Shown here piece after piece: positions 14,337 through 29,361 of a stretch of DNA of 36,124 nt (the first letter of the stretch is position 1; every line of letters begins with the position of its first letter). A program made the position numbers and the translations under genes. The notes beneath the pieces are model-generated. The model worked only from the letters and a program-made list of their open reading frames with translations, searched no databases and was not told where the DNA came from. The stretch is taken from positions 1 through 36,124 of IMG/VR virus record IMGVR_UViG_3300042504_003174; one strand, written 5' to 3'. This DNA is from a virus.

Positions 14337-14404
14337 GGGCGCTGCCGGGAATCGAACCCAGTATTCCATGCTATCTGCATGACGTGTGCCAACACTTCAG
14401 GGCC
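14337..14404 (-). tRNA. degenerate or minimal tRNA-like element
   Basis: A T-arm is clear: CTGGG TTCGATT CCCGG. Reading back, a 4-nt variable loop, an anticodon arm TCATG-CAGATAG-CATGG, a D-arm GTGT-TGGC-ACAC with only a 4-nt loop, and an acceptor GGCCCTG pairing with CAGCGCC (one C-C mismatch) complete a cloverleaf of 67 nt plus discriminator. The formal anticodon is GAT (Ile), but position 33 is A instead of the near-invariant U and the D-loop is too short for a normal tRNA. No CCA is encoded. It may be a decaying tRNA, a tRNA mimic, or an integration-type site. Confidence 0.45.
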
Positions 14405-14418
14405 AGTGACCCCCAAAT

Positions 14419-14610
14419 TTAAGCATTGTTAAGAGGCTTAGGGGGAGGACTGCAGGAGGCGATCAACTCTCCCGGCCTGCAAGCAGGACTTAGTTTACAA
14501 ACGCAACGACCAGAAATTTCCAGTCCGTGCGCTGCTTGACAATCGTAGCAAGAGATGGGCCAAGCGTGAACAGCCGCAAGCGGCTCAAACAGGGGCTTGG
14601 CCTCTGTCAC
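14419..14610 (-). CDS. hypothetical Cys-rich small protein
   Basis: This 63-residue frame starts at GTG 14610. It has a CYDC pair, then CVC and two later Cys (SPACRPGEL, IASC), a pattern that could bind zinc. It lies between nrdB and the tRNA-like element. There is no recognised family and the start codon is weak, so the gene is tentative. Confidence 0.35.
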   Translation of the reverse strand: MTEAKPLFEPLAAVHAWPISCYDCQAAHGLEISGRCVCKLSPACRPGELIASCSPPPKPLNNA

Positions 14611-19919: not shown

Positions 19920-21031
19920 GAGCATTCCCCCAAGCCCGAGAAGCGCGCGAGGCCTCCTCCTGCGAGCTCCTGCCAGTCAGCATGCGGAGCGAGCGCGAAG
20001 GCCTTCGCGCTCTCAGGCTTCGAGCCTCTCGAGCGCTTAAGGCGAAGCAATACCGCGAGGCCTGAGAAGCCAGCTCGAGGCGCTCGATCGAGCATGCGCA
20101 GGTCGTTAAGGTCCCCATCGATGCAATCAAGGCGCGCAAGGCCTCCTCCGGGAGCCGTGAGCATGAGCTCACCAGGGAGAGGCTCGCCCTTTGCAAGCAA
20201 TATTGGTACGGCAATCGAGAAGCCATGCCTCGAGGCCTCGAGCGCGCGAAGTGCTCCCCCTGGTGCGTCAGCCGCAAGGCTCGCAGTGGTGTGAATTCCG
20301 GCTTCTCTCATGGCGAGGAGGCGCGCGAGAGGCGCCTTTGCGTAGTCATAAAGATGGACGCCTCGAGCATCGCGCAAGGCCTCGGGGATTGTGAGCCTAC
20401 CGGAAGGGATTGTGCTCCCATAAAGGCGAGAAAGGCCTCGAGCCTCCTCGGGAGAAAGGCGCGCGCTCATGCTCCGCTCATGCCATGGAAGTTCTTGTGT
20501 GCCATTCAGGCGCAAGGCGAAGGGGAGGCGAAGCTTGCGCGCCTTTCGCGCTGCGAGGCCTCCGGACCACAGGAGCGCCTTTATAAAGGCCTCTGAGTCC
20601 CATAGAAAGGCGAGCATTCTTCGAGCCCTGCAGGAGGCACAGTTGGTCGAGATCCCGCCATGGCCTGAGAAGGCGAGACACAGATCCCTGCAAGCATCGC
20701 TCGAGAAGGCGCAAGCGTTAAGCGCGAGCGCGCGCTCGAGGAGCCCGAAACGAATCGCGAGCTCGCGAAGGCCGGGGAGCTCGCTCCTTACGTTGCAAGC
20801 ATGCGAGTCCGGAGTGAGCGCGCGCGCGAGGCCTTTCGCGGGGAGCATATGAAGGAGCGAGGAGAAGGCGAGGCCTTCGCCTTTCGCGAGCTTCGCGTTC
20901 GCAGCTCCTGAAGTGAGAAGGCCGGGGATTGTCAGGCCAAACTGCGCGAGGTTCGAGGAGTGCTCGCGAGGAGAGCGAGGCGCCTTCGAGCGAACCGCAG
21001 GAGGAGCGAGGAGGAGAGAAGGAGAAGCCAT
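19916..21031 (-). CDS. GP88-family protein in restricted nucleotide code
   Basis: The 371-residue protein shows the GP88 family pattern in order: GLLTSGAANAKLAKGEG (about 37-53), CRDLCLAFSGHGG (114-126), ARRMLAFLWDSEAF (136-149), LRLNGTQELPWHE (173-185), GVHLYDYAK (224-232) and DGDLNDLRMLD (305-315). GP88 proteins occur in phages and plasmids and have no established function. Leu, Ala, Ser and Arg are strongly over-used, while Val is near 1 percent and Tyr and Thr are rare. Leu is nearly always CTC or CTT, Arg CGC, Glu GAG. It lies 33 bp after the 191-residue gene and overlaps the next. Family call rests on motif order. Confidence 0.7.
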   Translation of the reverse strand: MASPSLLLAPPAVRSKAPRSPREHSSNLAQFGLTIPGLLTSGAANAKLAKGEGLAFSSLLHMLPAKGLARALTPDSHACNVRSELPGLRELAIRFGLLERALALNACAFSSDACRDLCLAFSGHGGISTNCASCRARRMLAFLWDSEAFIKALLWSGGLAARKARKLRLPFALRLNGTQELPWHERSMSARLSPEEARGLSRLYGSTIPSGRLTIPEALRDARGVHLYDYAKAPLARLLAMREAGIHTTASLAADAPGGALRALEASRHGFSIAVPILLAKGEPLPGELMLTAPGGGLARLDCIDGDLNDLRMLDRAPRAGFSGLAVLLRLKRSRGSKPESAKAFALAPHADWQELAGGGLARFSGLGECS

Positions 21032-21064
21032 GGGAGAGAAGGAGAAAGGAGAAGGAGAAGGAGC

Positions 21065-21640
21065 TCAGCGAGCGAGGAGAGGCCAGCGCAGATCAGCCAT
21101 GAGCGCTTCGAGCTCCTCGAGGCTCTCCTCGAGCTGAGCCTGCAGAGCCTCTCGCCTGTCGGCGATTGTGCGGAGCTCTGCTGCGCGCTCGCGCAATTGC
21201 AAGGCTCCCATCTGCAGATCCTTCGCGCTTAAGCACAGGCGAGGCTCACGCTCGAGAGCTGAGAGAAAGGAGGCGGCTTCGAGCTCGAGCTCCTCCGCAT
21301 CGGCGCGCAAGGAGAAAGGCGAGGAGCGCTCCTCGAGGAGCGCGAGGTTCTTCTCGAGCATGAGCGCGAAGGCCTCCGCCTCCTCAAGCGAGGAGAAGGA
21401 GAGCACTGGCCATGAGAGCTCACCCGGGAGAACGGGCGAAGGCGAAAGGCGAGGCGCGCGAGGAGCGCGCTTCTCGCCCGGGAGGAGAGGAGAGGCCATG
21501 AGAGAGAAAGGCGAAGACCTCCCCATATAAAGGCCTCGAGCGCCTTTCGAGAAGGAGCGATCAGGAGCGCTCATAAGAGGAGCGCCTTTCGCCTCCTTTC
21601 GAGAAGCTACGCTGATCAGATAAGGAGAAAGGCCATGCAT
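21065..21640 (-). CDS. island protein with long acidic coiled-coil region
   Basis: The 191-residue protein (ATG 21640; internal ATGs at 21575 and 21530 are alternatives) starts with a Pro/Arg/Ser-rich region and then becomes a helical, Leu-Glu-Ala-rich segment: SSLEEAEAFALMLEKNLALL, then LRERAAELRTIADRREALQA and QLEESLEELEALMADL. The heptad-like spacing of Leu suggests a coiled coil. Val is almost absent. It is the first gene of the three-gene island operon and uses the same codons as its neighbours. No recognised family; perhaps a partner of the GP88 protein. Confidence 0.5.
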   Translation of the reverse strand: MHGLSPYLISVASRKEAKGAPLMSAPDRSFSKGARGLYMGRSSPFSLMASPLLPGEKRAPRAPRLSPSPVLPGELSWPVLSFSSLEEAEAFALMLEKNLALLEERSSPFSLRADAEELELEAASFLSALEREPRLCLSAKDLQMGALQLRERAAELRTIADRREALQAQLEESLEELEALMADLRWPLLAR

Positions 21641-21786
21641 CCCAGGAATGCCTCGATTGCCATAAGCCAGGCTGATCAGTCAGCGAAAGGAGCGCGAGCC
21701 TTTACCAGGAGAAAGGCGAAGCGCTCGATACCTGCAACATTCCGTCACACTGACCCATGCCAAACGAAACGCACGCACCGCGCATT

Positions 21787-21924
21787 AACGACACGCAACG
21801 ACGCCCAACGCGCAGAAACGGCACGCAACGACGCCCACAAGCCCCCACAAGCCCCCACAAGCCCCCACAAGCCCCCACAAGCACCAACGACGCCCAACGA
21901 CGCCCAACGACGCCCACAAGCCCG
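21787..21924. repeat. T-free AC-rich block with 10-bp tandem repeats
   Basis: The plus strand has no T for 138 nt. It holds four perfect tandem copies of GCCCCCACAA (21841-21880), copies of CGCCCAACGA in tandem (21891-21910) and two copies of ACGCAACGACGCCCA further left. On the minus strand the first array becomes GGGGG runs separated by CTTGT, a clear G-quadruplex motif that would be in the leader of the GP88 operon transcript if its promoter is to the right. The 10-bp unit length matches one turn of the DNA helix. Confidence 0.8.
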
Positions 21925-21934
21925 TCACAGCTCA

Positions 21935-22054
21935 GCGTGCGCGCGTGCGCGCGCGTGCGCGCGTGGGTGCGCGTGCGCGCGTGGGCGCGCGTGCGCGCGT
22001 GGGTGCGCGTGCGCGCGTGGGCGCGCGTGCGCGCGTGGGTGCGCGTGCGCGCGT
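21935..22054. repeat. A-free Z-DNA-prone 18-bp tandem repeats
   Basis: For 120 nt the plus strand has no A and is nearly pure alternating purine-pyrimidine. Five tandem 18-bp units GTGGGYGCGCGTGCGCGC run from 21963 to 22052, with T and C alternating at unit position 6 (T, C, T, C, T), so the higher-order period is 36 bp. Alternating GC/GT tracts of this kind favour left-handed Z-DNA under negative supercoiling. Confidence 0.8.
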
Positions 22055-26272: not shown

Positions 26273-26629
26273 CTACACCACCTGATAACAGACCGTTGCC
26301 AGGCCGCTACCAGGGTGAGCGATGCGAGCAAAAGCGCCATAGCTCAGGTCGAGAATCCTACCACCGTACCAAGGGCCTCTATCAGTCACCTTGACGATTA
26401 CGCTCCGACCATTGCGCACCACTCTCAAGCGGGTGCCGAGCGGAAGCGATGGGTGGGCAGTGATCATGGCTCGCGGGTTCATTGGCTGACCATTGGCCAT
26501 TGTCTGGCCTGCAAAGCCGTCACCGTGCCCGTAGAAGCTGGCTTCGCCGCAGCGAGACTTAGCCTCCGCAGCAGCAGGCACCAGAGCGCCTAAGGCAACG
26601 GAAACTGAAAGAAGAAAACGAAAAAGCAT
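26273..26629 (-). CDS. RlpA-like double-psi beta-barrel protein, secreted
   Basis: The 118-residue protein (ATG 26629) starts with a signal peptide (MLFRFLLSVSVALGALVPAA ending AEA). The mature part is an RlpA-type double-psi beta barrel: CGEASFYGHGDGFAGQTMAN, then PLGT-RLRVVRN and KVTDRGPWYGGRILDLSYGA, including the conserved TDRGP. Bacterial RlpA proteins bind or cut peptidoglycan in the periplasm. A phage copy could act in cell-wall remodelling or lysis. It has its own promoter and GNRA leader, and a palindrome overlaps the promoter. Confidence 0.8.
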   Translation of the reverse strand: MLFRFLLSVSVALGALVPAAAEAKSRCGEASFYGHGDGFAGQTMANGQPMNPRAMITAHPSLPLGTRLRVVRNGRSVIVKVTDRGPWYGGRILDLSYGAFARIAHPGSGLATVCYQVV

Positions 26630-26660
26630 CAGGAAAGAAAAAGAAGAAGTGAGACTACGG

Positions 26661-26691
26661 AGGGTCGCCCCTACCAAGGTTTACCGTATCA
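26661..26691 (-). promoter_or_regulatory. leader 6: extended -10 promoter and GNRA hairpin
   Basis: The minus strand has TGATACGGT (26691-26683), an extended -10, then 10 nt and the hairpin AGGG-GCGA-CCCT (26672-26661). The RlpA-like ATG is 31 nt downstream. No terminator stem precedes it; the palindrome at 26689-26700 does. Confidence 0.5.
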
Positions 26692-26700: not shown

Positions 26701-26728
26701 GGCTTGCTGCCGTGGCTGGTAGTGGTGC

Positions 26729-26933
26729 TATGATTTGCAAGCTTGAGTTGGTCCTGGCCGAAAGGCCCGTCGCTGACGCCGCAAGGGTGGACGCTGCTGA
26801 GCACTCTGGACTTTCCGCGAGGACTGTCCCTAGCATTGCATGGGCTAGTGAGAGGAGTGCTCCCCTTTGGGAGGGAGGCTGTGGCATCGGAAGCTCAAGC
26901 AAAGGAAGAAGGGCCGCAAGGCCCTTCTTTTTT
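26729..26933 (+). ncRNA. structured small RNA with promoter and terminator
   Basis: An extended -10, TGC-TATGAT (hexamer 26729-26734), predicts a start at 26741. From there GCTTGAG (26741-26747) pairs with CTCAAGC (26894-26900) and closes a multibranch fold: GGCC-GAAA-GGCC (26756-26767), CGCC-GCAAG-GGTG (26777-26789), GAGCACTC 26799-26806 with GAGTGCTC 26855-26862 enclosing GGAC-TT-TCC-GCGA-GGA-CT-GTCC (26808-26829) and CTAGC/GCTAG (26830-26848). A terminator GAAGGGCC-GCAA-GGCCCTTC with six T ends at 26933. No convincing gene is seen on either strand. The RNA would be about 193 nt. No known family is recognised by eye. Confidence 0.65.
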
Positions 26934-26982
26934 GCCTATAGGAAGCCAGCTAGACTCGCAATAGAAAGCTGTCCAGTTTCTA

Positions 26983-27153
26983 ATGACTGAACAAGAACGC
27001 GAGCGTGAGCGTTTGGCACGATGGCTGAGGAATGATCCAGAATATGATGATTGGGCTTATGCCACAGAGCCCATTCCTGGTGATCATTCATGGGCAAAGA
27101 AAAAGGCTCCCGAAGGAGCCAGTGATCACGATGCGTCGTCCCAGTCGGGCTGA
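26983..27153 (+). CDS. possible small charged protein
   Basis: This 56-residue frame reads MTEQERERERLARWLRNDPE, then YDDWAYATEPIPGDHSWAKK. The composition looks protein-like, but its 3' part runs through the minus-strand terminator at 27098-27120 and overlaps the convergent gene by 28 bp. It would have to be read past the terminator at 26933 or have its own promoter. Tentative. Confidence 0.35.
   Translation: MTEQERERERLARWLRNDPEYDDWAYATEPIPGDHSWAKKKAPEGASDHDASSQSG
27098..27120 (-). terminator. intrinsic terminator
   Basis: GGCTCC-TTCG-GGAGCC on the minus strand (27120-27105) is followed by TTTTTCTTT. It ends the unit running from 28530 to 27126. Confidence 0.75.
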
Positions 27154-27302
27154 AGCTGGATGTCGTAGTGACTATGAGGGTAAAGCTCTTCTGCAATGAT
27201 GCGAGCTTTTTCCCTAGTGGGAGCGAGGATGGACAATATATTCACATTGCCATCGTTCTTGATTGTCACCTCCCAGGGCATGCAAACAGGCAGGGAAATC
27301 AT
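27126..27302 (-). CDS. hypothetical small protein
   Basis: The 58-residue product (ATG 27302, overlapping the upstream stop in ATGA) contains MISLPVCMPWEVTIKNDGNV, then ILAPTREKARIIAEELYPHS and HYDIQLQPDWDD. This is the layout of a small beta-alpha-beta domain. It is the last gene before the terminator. Function unknown. Confidence 0.55.
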   Translation of the reverse strand: MISLPVCMPWEVTIKNDGNVNILSILAPTREKARIIAEELYPHSHYDIQLQPDWDDAS

Positions 27303-27640
27303 TTCCTCCCTTCCATTGCTTCCCAAGTCATTGCGGCAGCATAAGAAGTGAGATAAGCCATGAGGTCGTCGTCAGTAGGGGCTTCGCTGATCACTGCTTC
27401 ATGCTCCTGCAGGTGGCGCTTGTGTGCTGCCTTGAGGGAAAAATAAAGCGTTTCAATGGAGCGACTATGGCAAACAGGCATCACTGACATGGCCTCTTCA
27501 AGCGTGATGAGCCATTCTTCAAGGCTTTTCACGGAGAATCCCCATGCAACGTGAGGGTTGCCAAAGTTCATGACGAGCTTGCCGTCAGTAGTGAAGGCAG
27601 TGGTTTCGCCAGACGATTCGGTTTTAATGCGGGAAGACAT
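27299..27640 (-). CDS. hypothetical protein
   Basis: The 113-residue protein (ATG 27640) starts MSSRIKTESSGETTAFTTDG, has a strand NPHVAWGFSVKSLEEWLITL and a helical C-terminus with EAPTDDDLMAYLTSYAAAMT. The pattern of a beta-hairpin followed by helices is compatible with a small regulatory or anti-defence protein, but no family is recognised. Its leader carries the triple GGGCAGAGT repeat. Confidence 0.5.
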   Translation of the reverse strand: MSSRIKTESSGETTAFTTDGKLVMNFGNPHVAWGFSVKSLEEWLITLEEAMSVMPVCHSRSIETLYFSLKAAHKRHLQEHEAVISEAPTDDDLMAYLTSYAAAMTWEAMEGRK

Positions 27641-27673
27641 GGAGGGAATGAGAAGGAACTTGCCCATCATCAA

Positions 27674-27705
27674 GGGCAGAGTGGGGCAGAGTCAAGGGGC
27701 AGAGT
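27674..27705. repeat. three copies of GGGCAGAGT
   Basis: Direct copies lie at 27674-27682, 27684-27692 and 27697-27705, across the stop codon of the gene at 27692 and the leader of the gene at 27640. GCCC-TTGATGAT-GGGC next to it (27664-27679 region) can form a hairpin in the mRNA. Confidence 0.55.
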
Positions 27706-28054
27706 TATTAGTCTTGCTTATAGTCTTTGGCGGCTTCCAGCCAGTTGCAAGGAAATGCCCCTTGCCAATGGGCTTCAGAAAAACGTGACGGCCTGCTCTG
27801 GCGATGATGCTTTGAAAAGCTTGTCGCTTGGTCTTGTCCAAGGGCATACCAGGCTCCATTAACCAGCTATAGGCCCAGTCGGCTAGTTCTTCAAGGTCTT
27901 CAATGGAGGATGTGCGAAGAGAATAATGACGGCCACGCTGCGCCACTTTCTGCCAGGCAGGATGCACGGGAGGGTTTTCGGCCACTAAATCTTCTGCTTC
28001 CTTCCGCAGCACTGGCGGAATGCAAATGGTGACCATGGGCGGGAGGGAGTCCAT
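27692..28054 (-). CDS. hypothetical protein
   Basis: The 120-residue protein (ATG 28054) contains MVTICIPPVLRKEAEDLVAE, VAQRGRHYSLRTSSIEDLEE and ARAGRHVFLKPIGKGHFLAT. It starts 2 nt after the stop of the upstream gene, so both are in one unit. The alternation of helix and short strands gives no clear family. Confidence 0.5.
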   Translation of the reverse strand: MDSLPPMVTICIPPVLRKEAEDLVAENPPVHPAWQKVAQRGRHYSLRTSSIEDLEELADWAYSWLMEPGMPLDKTKRQAFQSIIARAGRHVFLKPIGKGHFLATGWKPPKTISKTNNSAP

Positions 28055-28056
28055 GA

Positions 28057-28530
28057 TCAAAGCAACGGGTCGGTGTAAGGGTCGAAGATGTCAGAAGGCT
28101 CTTTACCAGCTTCCTCAAGCCCTTCCAGCACGGCCTGATTGATTTGCTGACGCATGGCTGCCCTGTAGTCGTCGTCCCCTCCAAAGCTTCCCACGTCCTC
28201 CATGAGCCTGACGGCTTGCGTGAGTTTGTTCATGTCGCAGGCAGTCAATACGGCTTCTTGGATGGCGCCGTTGAGCATGTGCTGCTCGAGCCAAGTGCCA
28301 TGCAGCTCCACCCACTTGCCAAGGGCCACAATGGCCATTGCCTTGAGAGCTTCGTCCCCATAGCGTTCTAGGCTTTTCTCGAGCAGGTCAGCAGCGTCAG
28401 GAGCAATGGCGAAGGTGGAAGGGTCGGTGAGCAATGGAAAAAGCCCTTCGTCAATTGCTGCTCGCTTGCTGGCTTTTGCTTCCTTTGCTTTACGAAGGAA
28501 GTTGCCCACAGAATCAAACGAAAAATTCAT
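28057..28530 (-). CDS. hypothetical helical protein
   Basis: The 157-residue protein (ATG 28530) is predicted all-helical: MNFSFDSVGNFLRKAKEAKA, then DAADLLEKSLERYGDEALKA, WLEQHMLNGAIQEAVLTACD and RQQINQAVLEGLEEAGKEPS. Repeats of about 35-40 residues hint at a HEAT- or TPR-like solenoid, not certain. A promoter TTGACA-18-TACGCT lies directly upstream. Confidence 0.55.
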   Translation of the reverse strand: MNFSFDSVGNFLRKAKEAKASKRAAIDEGLFPLLTDPSTFAIAPDAADLLEKSLERYGDEALKAMAIVALGKWVELHGTWLEQHMLNGAIQEAVLTACDMNKLTQAVRLMEDVGSFGGDDDYRAAMRQQINQAVLEGLEEAGKEPSDIFDPYTDPLL

Positions 28531-28551
28531 CAAGACAAAGCAGTCCCATCA

Positions 28552-28593: not shown

Positions 28594-29343
28594 TTAACTT
28601 TCCTCTCCATCGTCCTGTTCGCTATTCGCGAATAGCAAAGGCTTGCTGGGACCAGTGGGCTCTCCTTGTTCGTCGAAATAAGCCTCAGCATCAATGGCAG
28701 TGGCTCTAACTTCACTATTGCTTTCAGCTTCTTTTATTTTGCGAACTTCCTTGCTTAAATTATCAAGGAATGCTTTGTAGCCGCTCTTCTCTTCCGTTTG
28801 TGGCTTCACATCAAACAGGCCAATTAGCTTTGCCTGCTGCTCCAGACAGCTACGGGCAATGCCAAGGAAGCCGCTTTCGCCAGCACTTTCTTCCATACGC
28901 ACAATGGTTTCGCCAGGGCCGTCAGGCCCTTCCTTGTAAGTGGTGACTTTCTTGCGCTTGCTGTGTTCAAAGCTTTCGAGGGCTTTGTCTTTGAGTTCGC
29001 CTTGTTCTTTGATTAGCCGTGCCCGCCAAGTGTCTTGGCTCTTAAGGATTTCAGCAGTCCATAAGTTGCGATTGTGATGACGATCGGCGCTAACAGTTTC
29101 TTTGCTTAGCTTCAAGATGTCGGCAATTTGCCTGTTGCTTAAACTTGCCGCTAAAAGCTCCTGCACCATATACCGGCGCAATCCAGTGAGTTCTTTGGTG
29201 TAGGGAATCTTGCCCGGACCTGCTCCCACTCTGTCGCGAATGTGCTCAATTTGCTGAGGCGTCATTCCAGCTTCCAGAAGCACCTTCACGCCATATTTCA
29301 ATTGCTGCTCCTTGTCCGGGAAGTCAATTTCAGGAAGGGGCAT
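28594..29343 (-). CDS. putative small terminase subunit (HTH protein)
   Basis: The 249-residue protein (ATG 29343) has a helix-turn-helix in SNRQIADILKLSKETVSADR and a preceding helical region LTGLRRYMVQELLAASL. The part after residue 150, with RMEESAGESGFLGIARSCLE then QQAKLIGLFDV, is like the oligomerisation region of small terminases (…LEQxxKLIGL). The acidic C-terminus (SEQDDGEES) fits too. TerS recognises packaging sites and stimulates TerL. It lies far from terL, which lowers confidence; another DNA-binding regulator is possible. Confidence 0.5.
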   Translation of the reverse strand: MPLPEIDFPDKEQQLKYGVKVLLEAGMTPQQIEHIRDRVGAGPGKIPYTKELTGLRRYMVQELLAASLSNRQIADILKLSKETVSADRHHNRNLWTAEILKSQDTWRARLIKEQGELKDKALESFEHSKRKKVTTYKEGPDGPGETIVRMEESAGESGFLGIARSCLEQQAKLIGLFDVKPQTEEKSGYKAFLDNLSKEVRKIKEAESNSEVRATAIDAEAYFDEQGEPTGPSKPLLFANSEQDDGEES

Positions 29344-29361
29344 GGTCAATGGGCAGTAAAA

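Follow-up and report, generated by a model that had tools for sequence, protein, structure and literature searches.

The window analysed here is the whole of a 36,124-base IMG/VR virus record. Its only close isolated relative is Synechococcus phage S-CBS4, with which it shares 57% identity in the terminase. The original prediction concerned an intergenic region of the record, flanked by a divergent rlpA-like gene on one side and a convergent three-gene block on the other, and took it for a phage small RNA, so far unannotated, about 193 nt long and with a promoter and terminator of its own. The features of this locus, in window coordinates, are the following.

26273 to 26629, minus strand: rlpA-like gene, divergent, encoding a double-psi beta-barrel (PF03330, Pfam E 1.3e-22)
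26726 to 26734, plus strand: putative extended -10 promoter TG-C-TATGAT, read from the sequence (TG 26726-26727, hexamer 26729-26734)
26741 to 26933, plus strand: RNA gene, about 193 nt including the terminator, of which 26741-26900 is spanned by the covariance model match
26902 to 26933, plus strand: predicted intrinsic terminator directly after the closing helix, with its stem at 26906-26929 and a T run to about 26933
26983 to 27153, plus strand: small downstream ORF of 56 aa, on the opposite strand in some relatives
27299 to 27673, 27692 to 28060 and 28057 to 28533, minus strand: convergent block of three conserved genes, syntenic in relatives

The position of the hexamer places the transcription start near 26741, which is the first base of the closing helix, as had been predicted. 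Among the relatives, the extended -10 sequence TGNTANNNT occurs in the same register in 67 of 69 (shuffle mean 4.3), its hexamer ending 3 to 7 nt 5' of the first model position, and a terminator-like hairpin with a T run lies directly 3' of the closing helix in all 68 with enough sequence. Conservation of the promoter suggests that the RNA is transcribed on the plus strand from this short extended -10 element. In a subgroup of relatives (L067, L082, L110, L119 and others), TGCCGANCGGAC is found just upstream of the extended -10 and is possibly an operator.

Open reading frames do overlap the RNA site in the window, but no frame is conserved across the 69 relatives. Any plus frame is stop-free in just 2-4 of the 69 and the minus frames in at most 22, and the lengths are not multiples of three; a coding explanation of the region was rejected for lack of a conserved frame. 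As judged from conserved sequence signals, the locus thus has its own promoter, its own terminator and no conserved ORF, and compensatory base changes support its fold, as expected of a stand-alone noncoding RNA gene. We regard the existence of this gene as nearly certain.

The first relatives were viral contigs obtained through their neighbouring rlpA-like genes, in which the RNA region was recognisable by BLASTN or by eye, and further ones were added by a pattern scan for the P2 motif described below. An initial alignment made with MAFFT and RNAalifold was misaligned and gave a poor consensus. It was replaced by a covariance model seeded on two sequences only, the window copy and L021, which found 82 copies over 91 sources. 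A second model, R2, recovered most copies at E <1e-20; its weakest accepted copies scored 34.7-70 bits and chance matches 17 bits or less. By a hand count over the covariance-model searches, more than 100 distinct viral contigs carry the RNA. The search for homologues in cyanophage genomes, proposed as a check on the original prediction, was thus amply rewarded, also by a cultured virus: Synechococcus phage S-CBS4 carries the RNA at 64539-64729 on its minus strand (E 1e-31 over the whole genome), and its record has no annotated feature under the match. BLASTN against isolated phages found S-CBS4 with the relative L047, gave terminator matches only with the window copy, and returned no match with L059 or L082.

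The RNA was absent from the rlpA-bearing T4-like cyanophages S-CREM1, S-PM2, DSL-LC03, S-CRM01 and S-SZBM1, and from S-CBWM1 and the podovirus S-CBP4, both with rlpA-like sequence. A pattern scan of a genome collection (84,980 species) gave 63 matches, of which a single one, a viral contig in a Rhodobiaceae MAG, scored above chance with the model; the pattern was strict, and the lack of a cyanobacterial copy among these species argues weakly against a host homologue. The exceptional contig (L159, NYTN01000042.1, identical with our locus L113) is a 20.5-kb cyanophage-like sequence, and its place in that MAG is probably a binning error. Judged by these sequence matches, the RNA is a core feature of S-CBS4-like cyanosiphoviruses.

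In nearly every locus the RNA lies between the divergent rlpA-like gene and the convergent three-gene block. Its neighbours in the window, read by the original prediction as a putative early-gene cluster, are the rlpA-like gene, small ORFs and, further on, a helicase-primase. The rlpA-like gene adjoins the RNA in 68 of 70 loci, the exceptions being L111, where the locus is cut short, and L113. When loci were chosen instead by the protein encoded at 27692-28060, the RNA was present in 65 of 80; the other 15 have no detectable rlpA, 14 of them stopping short and one (L250) lying on a contig with the RNA elsewhere. That 106.7-kb contig (IMGVR_UViG_3300027151_000002, also the source of L087), which places the RNA about 68 kb from the gene usually found downstream of it, is probably a permuted or chimeric assembly. 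Two further conserved elements were noticed by eye in the window and its relatives. The leader of the rlpA-like gene (about 26655-26690, minus strand) apparently includes a small hairpin, conserved and with a GGCGAC or GGAGAC loop, possibly a second RNA element, and a TAGACTCG-like motif between the RNA terminator and the small ORF (26934-26982) is probably the promoter of that ORF. Beyond the three-gene block, the gene at 28594-29349 (minus strand) has as its counterpart S-CBS4 gp086, which, like a PHROG, is labelled RNase E; Pfam gives a weak helix-turn-helix only, and the RNase E label looks doubtful.

Comparison of the relatives yielded the following elements of the fold, all on the plus strand.

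26741 to 26749: 5' strand of the closing helix P1 (partner 26892-26900), 9 pairs, each showing changes on both sides
26751 to 26754: 5' strand of P2, GUCC (partner GGAC 26789-26792), 99.6-100% paired with changes on both sides; P2 was partly the retrieval motif in the pattern scan, but not in the set chosen by neighbouring protein
26756 to 26767: hairpin P2a, with a GAAA loop in the window and a CUUAAU-type loop in many relatives
26768 to 26778: hairpin P2b, 99-100% paired with changes on both sides
26779 to 26786: CC-GNRA-GG element P2c, in which CC and GG never vary and the first G and last A of GNRA are invariant
26793 to 26797: 5' strand of P4 (partner 26881-26885), about 99% paired, with double changes at each of the 5 pairs
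26799 to 26806: 5' strand of P3 (partner 26855-26862), 99.5% paired, with double changes at each of the 8 pairs
26808 to 26829: hairpin P3a with a GCGA tip, from the covariation alignments
26830 to 26848: hairpin P3b with the loop AUUGCAUGG, C 26839 and U 26841 being more than 90% conserved
26863 to 26875: hairpin P5, 95-96% paired with changes on both sides
26886 to 26891: unpaired junction strand AUCGGA between P4 and P1, each base 97% conserved over an effective 33 sequences

P1 thus closes a structure in which P2 carries P2a, P2b and the CC-GNRA-GG element, P4 follows directly after P2 and encloses P3 with its hairpins P3a and P3b, and P5 and the unpaired AUCGGA strand come last. The inner six pairs of P1 are nearly always formed and the outer three often are not. 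At least five internal helices and two GNRA-like loops had been predicted; the former estimate was borne out by at least eight helices, and the latter was one too few, as the window copy has three GNRA loops (GAAA 26760-63, GCAA 26781-84, GCGA 26817-20). Because its two pairs never vary, the P2c hairpin is unproven by covariation, and the element may form a tertiary contact instead. The minimum free energy fold of the window copy agrees with the conserved fold in P1, P3, P3a and P3b; P2 and P4 come from covariation. Peripheral hairpins have been lost or replaced in four relatives (L008, L023, L113 and L294) that retain P1, P2 and P4, so that the P1/P2/P4 junction constitutes the core. One of them, L294, deviates from AUCGGA even in the junction strand.

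Folding of the single window sequence gave -90 kcal/mol; shuffles averaged -78.5 +/- 4.5 (z -2.58), and 2 in 200 did equally well. This result is suggestive, not proof; it is the covariation seen in sequence comparison among relatives that proves the RNA where folding alone cannot. In one alignment (A5), 94.4% of cells were in standard pairs as opposed to 67.7% in shuffles, 49 of 51 pairs changed on both sides, and the covariation score reached 0.660 against 0.205. A second alignment (A8), whose loci were picked by the neighbouring protein and not by RNA sequence, albeit with many contigs common to both, had 93.5% of its cells paired and a covariation score of 0.725 against 0.220, and two-sided changes again affected 49 of 51 pairs. 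For neither alignment did any of 500 shuffles reach the observed values. When partners were slid by one to three columns, pairing fell to 37-47% (37-46% for A5 alone). The pairing counts lean towards the structure, since both alignments were fitted to it; given the effect size and the slid controls, an artefact is implausible. A mutual-information scan of all column pairs in alignment A6 returned predicted pairs for all of its top 24 and added one further P3 pair, 26807-26854. G-U pairs made up 10.4% of cells and A-C 0.6%, and from this excess it follows that the functional RNA is the plus strand.

The RNA matches no family in Rfam 15. In the whole window only abiF reached the gathering threshold, at a place other than the RNA site, and relaxed searches with the window copy and three relatives gave sub-threshold matches only, the best at the terminator and the others by chance. 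The abiF RNA (RF03085, 52.6 bits) at 14409-14445 (minus strand) is adjacent to a tRNA-Ile(gat), an ARAGORN prediction at 14337-14404 (minus strand) that overlaps the start of an ORF. Likenesses between P2c and 23S rRNA CCGUGAGGG and between the P2a loop and tmRNA were rejected as too short or not conserved. Phage-encoded structured transcripts that act as RNA include phi29 pRNA, HK022 put RNA, the lambda 6S/PR' leader and GOLLD. Compared via Rfam only, and where Rfam holds them, these show no similarity to the present RNA, and their contexts (packaging motor, antitermination leader, tRNA arrays) were not seen at its locus. CfrI of the T4-like phage S-PM2 is also a cyanophage RNA gene, of about 225 nt, but it is antisense and linked to psbA (PMC12197685), whereas the present RNA is intergenic and conserved in structure; the model of the present RNA found nothing in S-PM2. 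The wcaG, manA, PhotoRC-II and glnA motifs are likewise structured cyanophage RNAs found by comparative work, but they are cis-regulatory and were described in 5' UTRs (PMC2864571, PMC9964418); the RNA studied here is free-standing, with its own terminator and no family match. Searches of the open-access literature found no earlier description. The RNA is apparently new, and the proposal of a previously unannotated phage small RNA has strong comparative support.

What might such an RNA do? The original prediction considered a regulator of phage or host, which it may be, or a 6S-like RNA polymerase decoy. The present RNA does resemble 6S RNA in its stability, its length near 190 nt, its closing helix, and its own promoter and terminator. 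However, 6S RNA is a rod-like duplex with a large central promoter-like bubble and this one a branched three-way junction with side hairpins, and the 6S model RF00013 found no match in the window record while detecting the E. coli, B. subtilis and Synechococcus elongatus controls. Membership in the 6S family was therefore rejected, the comparison with Rfam families urged along with that idea matched none, and a decoy of the 6S type is very improbable. Equally hard to credit is a role in cis, as leader, attenuator or antitermination element of the downstream gene, even though the structured RNA ends in a terminator after about 193 nt and a small sense ORF follows it in the window as well as in many relatives. 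No relative lacks the terminator, and the RNA does not consistently precede a conserved, regulated gene in the sense orientation: downstream orientation varies and is often convergent. Because the small ORF lies on either strand among relatives, the RNA is not its leader, and in relatives whose downstream genes are convergent (L024, L121, L007 and L022, for example, which have no recognised sense gene downstream) a leader role is excluded. We give least credence to a DNA-level element, such as an origin or a packaging or recombination site, whose inverted repeats would mimic RNA helices. An intergenic site between divergent and convergent units would suit it, but the G-U excess over A-C reflects selection on a one-strand RNA, and promoter and terminator are in register.

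We tentatively favour, at a probability of about 0.45, a trans-acting structured RNA of S-CBS4-like cyanosiphoviruses that serves as a protein-binding decoy, inhibitor or scaffold. This reading is the most likely because the helices change in sequence yet preserve the structure, and because the RNA showed no detectable pairing with neighbouring mRNAs; protein binding itself is reached by elimination. Transcription of the plus strand would start from the extended -10 promoter and end at the intrinsic terminator directly 3' of the closing helix. The transcript would fold into a three-way junction of P1, the P2 domain and the P4/P3 domain that includes a GNRA-type element and an AUCGGA strand almost free of variation, and would bind a phage or host protein during infection without long base-pairing to messenger RNA. 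From the closed stable fold, the fixed core and the drifting helices, we infer that the RNA works through its shape. Ranking second after protein binding, but on balance unlikely, is a trans-encoded antisense RNA whose exposed P3b loop around CAUGG, AUCGGA strand and P5 loop would be seeds for distant phage or host mRNAs. Many phage sRNAs act by antisense pairing (reviewed in PMC12197685), and AUCGGA and part of the CAUGG loop are both exposed and conserved. Against this, the conserved unpaired stretches are short (6-9 nt, the longest strongly conserved one being 6 nt), and the three-way junction exceeds what such RNAs need. With the unpaired segments, cognate pairing at the start regions of five neighbour genes was no better than non-cognate, which disfavours action on these genes; a full-length pairing test was uninformative, its energies being dominated by long loose duplexes. 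An RNA acting alone, by binding a ligand, by catalysis or by self-assembly with the conserved junction as its core, seems less probable still. Nearly invariant junction residues and drifting peripheral helices, together with the altered peripheral hairpins of the four relatives named above, speak for it, but the RNA matches no Rfam ribozyme and, controlling no downstream gene, is not a classical riboswitch.

One may speculate further that the RNA represents a new class of phage structured RNA, itself a core feature of an entire cyanosiphovirus clade, disarming or redirecting a central host machine (RNA polymerase, the ribosome or RNase E, for instance) via a novel three-way-junction shape. To our knowledge, free-standing structured phage RNAs are rarely found. 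Almost all related phages with sequence at the locus carry this one, which suggests that it is needed, and it would add an RNA-based layer to the viral takeover of abundant aquatic photosynthesisers. With a cultured carrier and host available (S-CBS4 on Synechococcus CB0101), its expression, partner and knock-out phenotype are directly testable, and the covariance model offers annotators a gene now missed in these genomes. Elsewhere in the window, the region at about 20000-22000 differs from the rest of the record in having a GC content of up to 63% and low-complexity ORFs.
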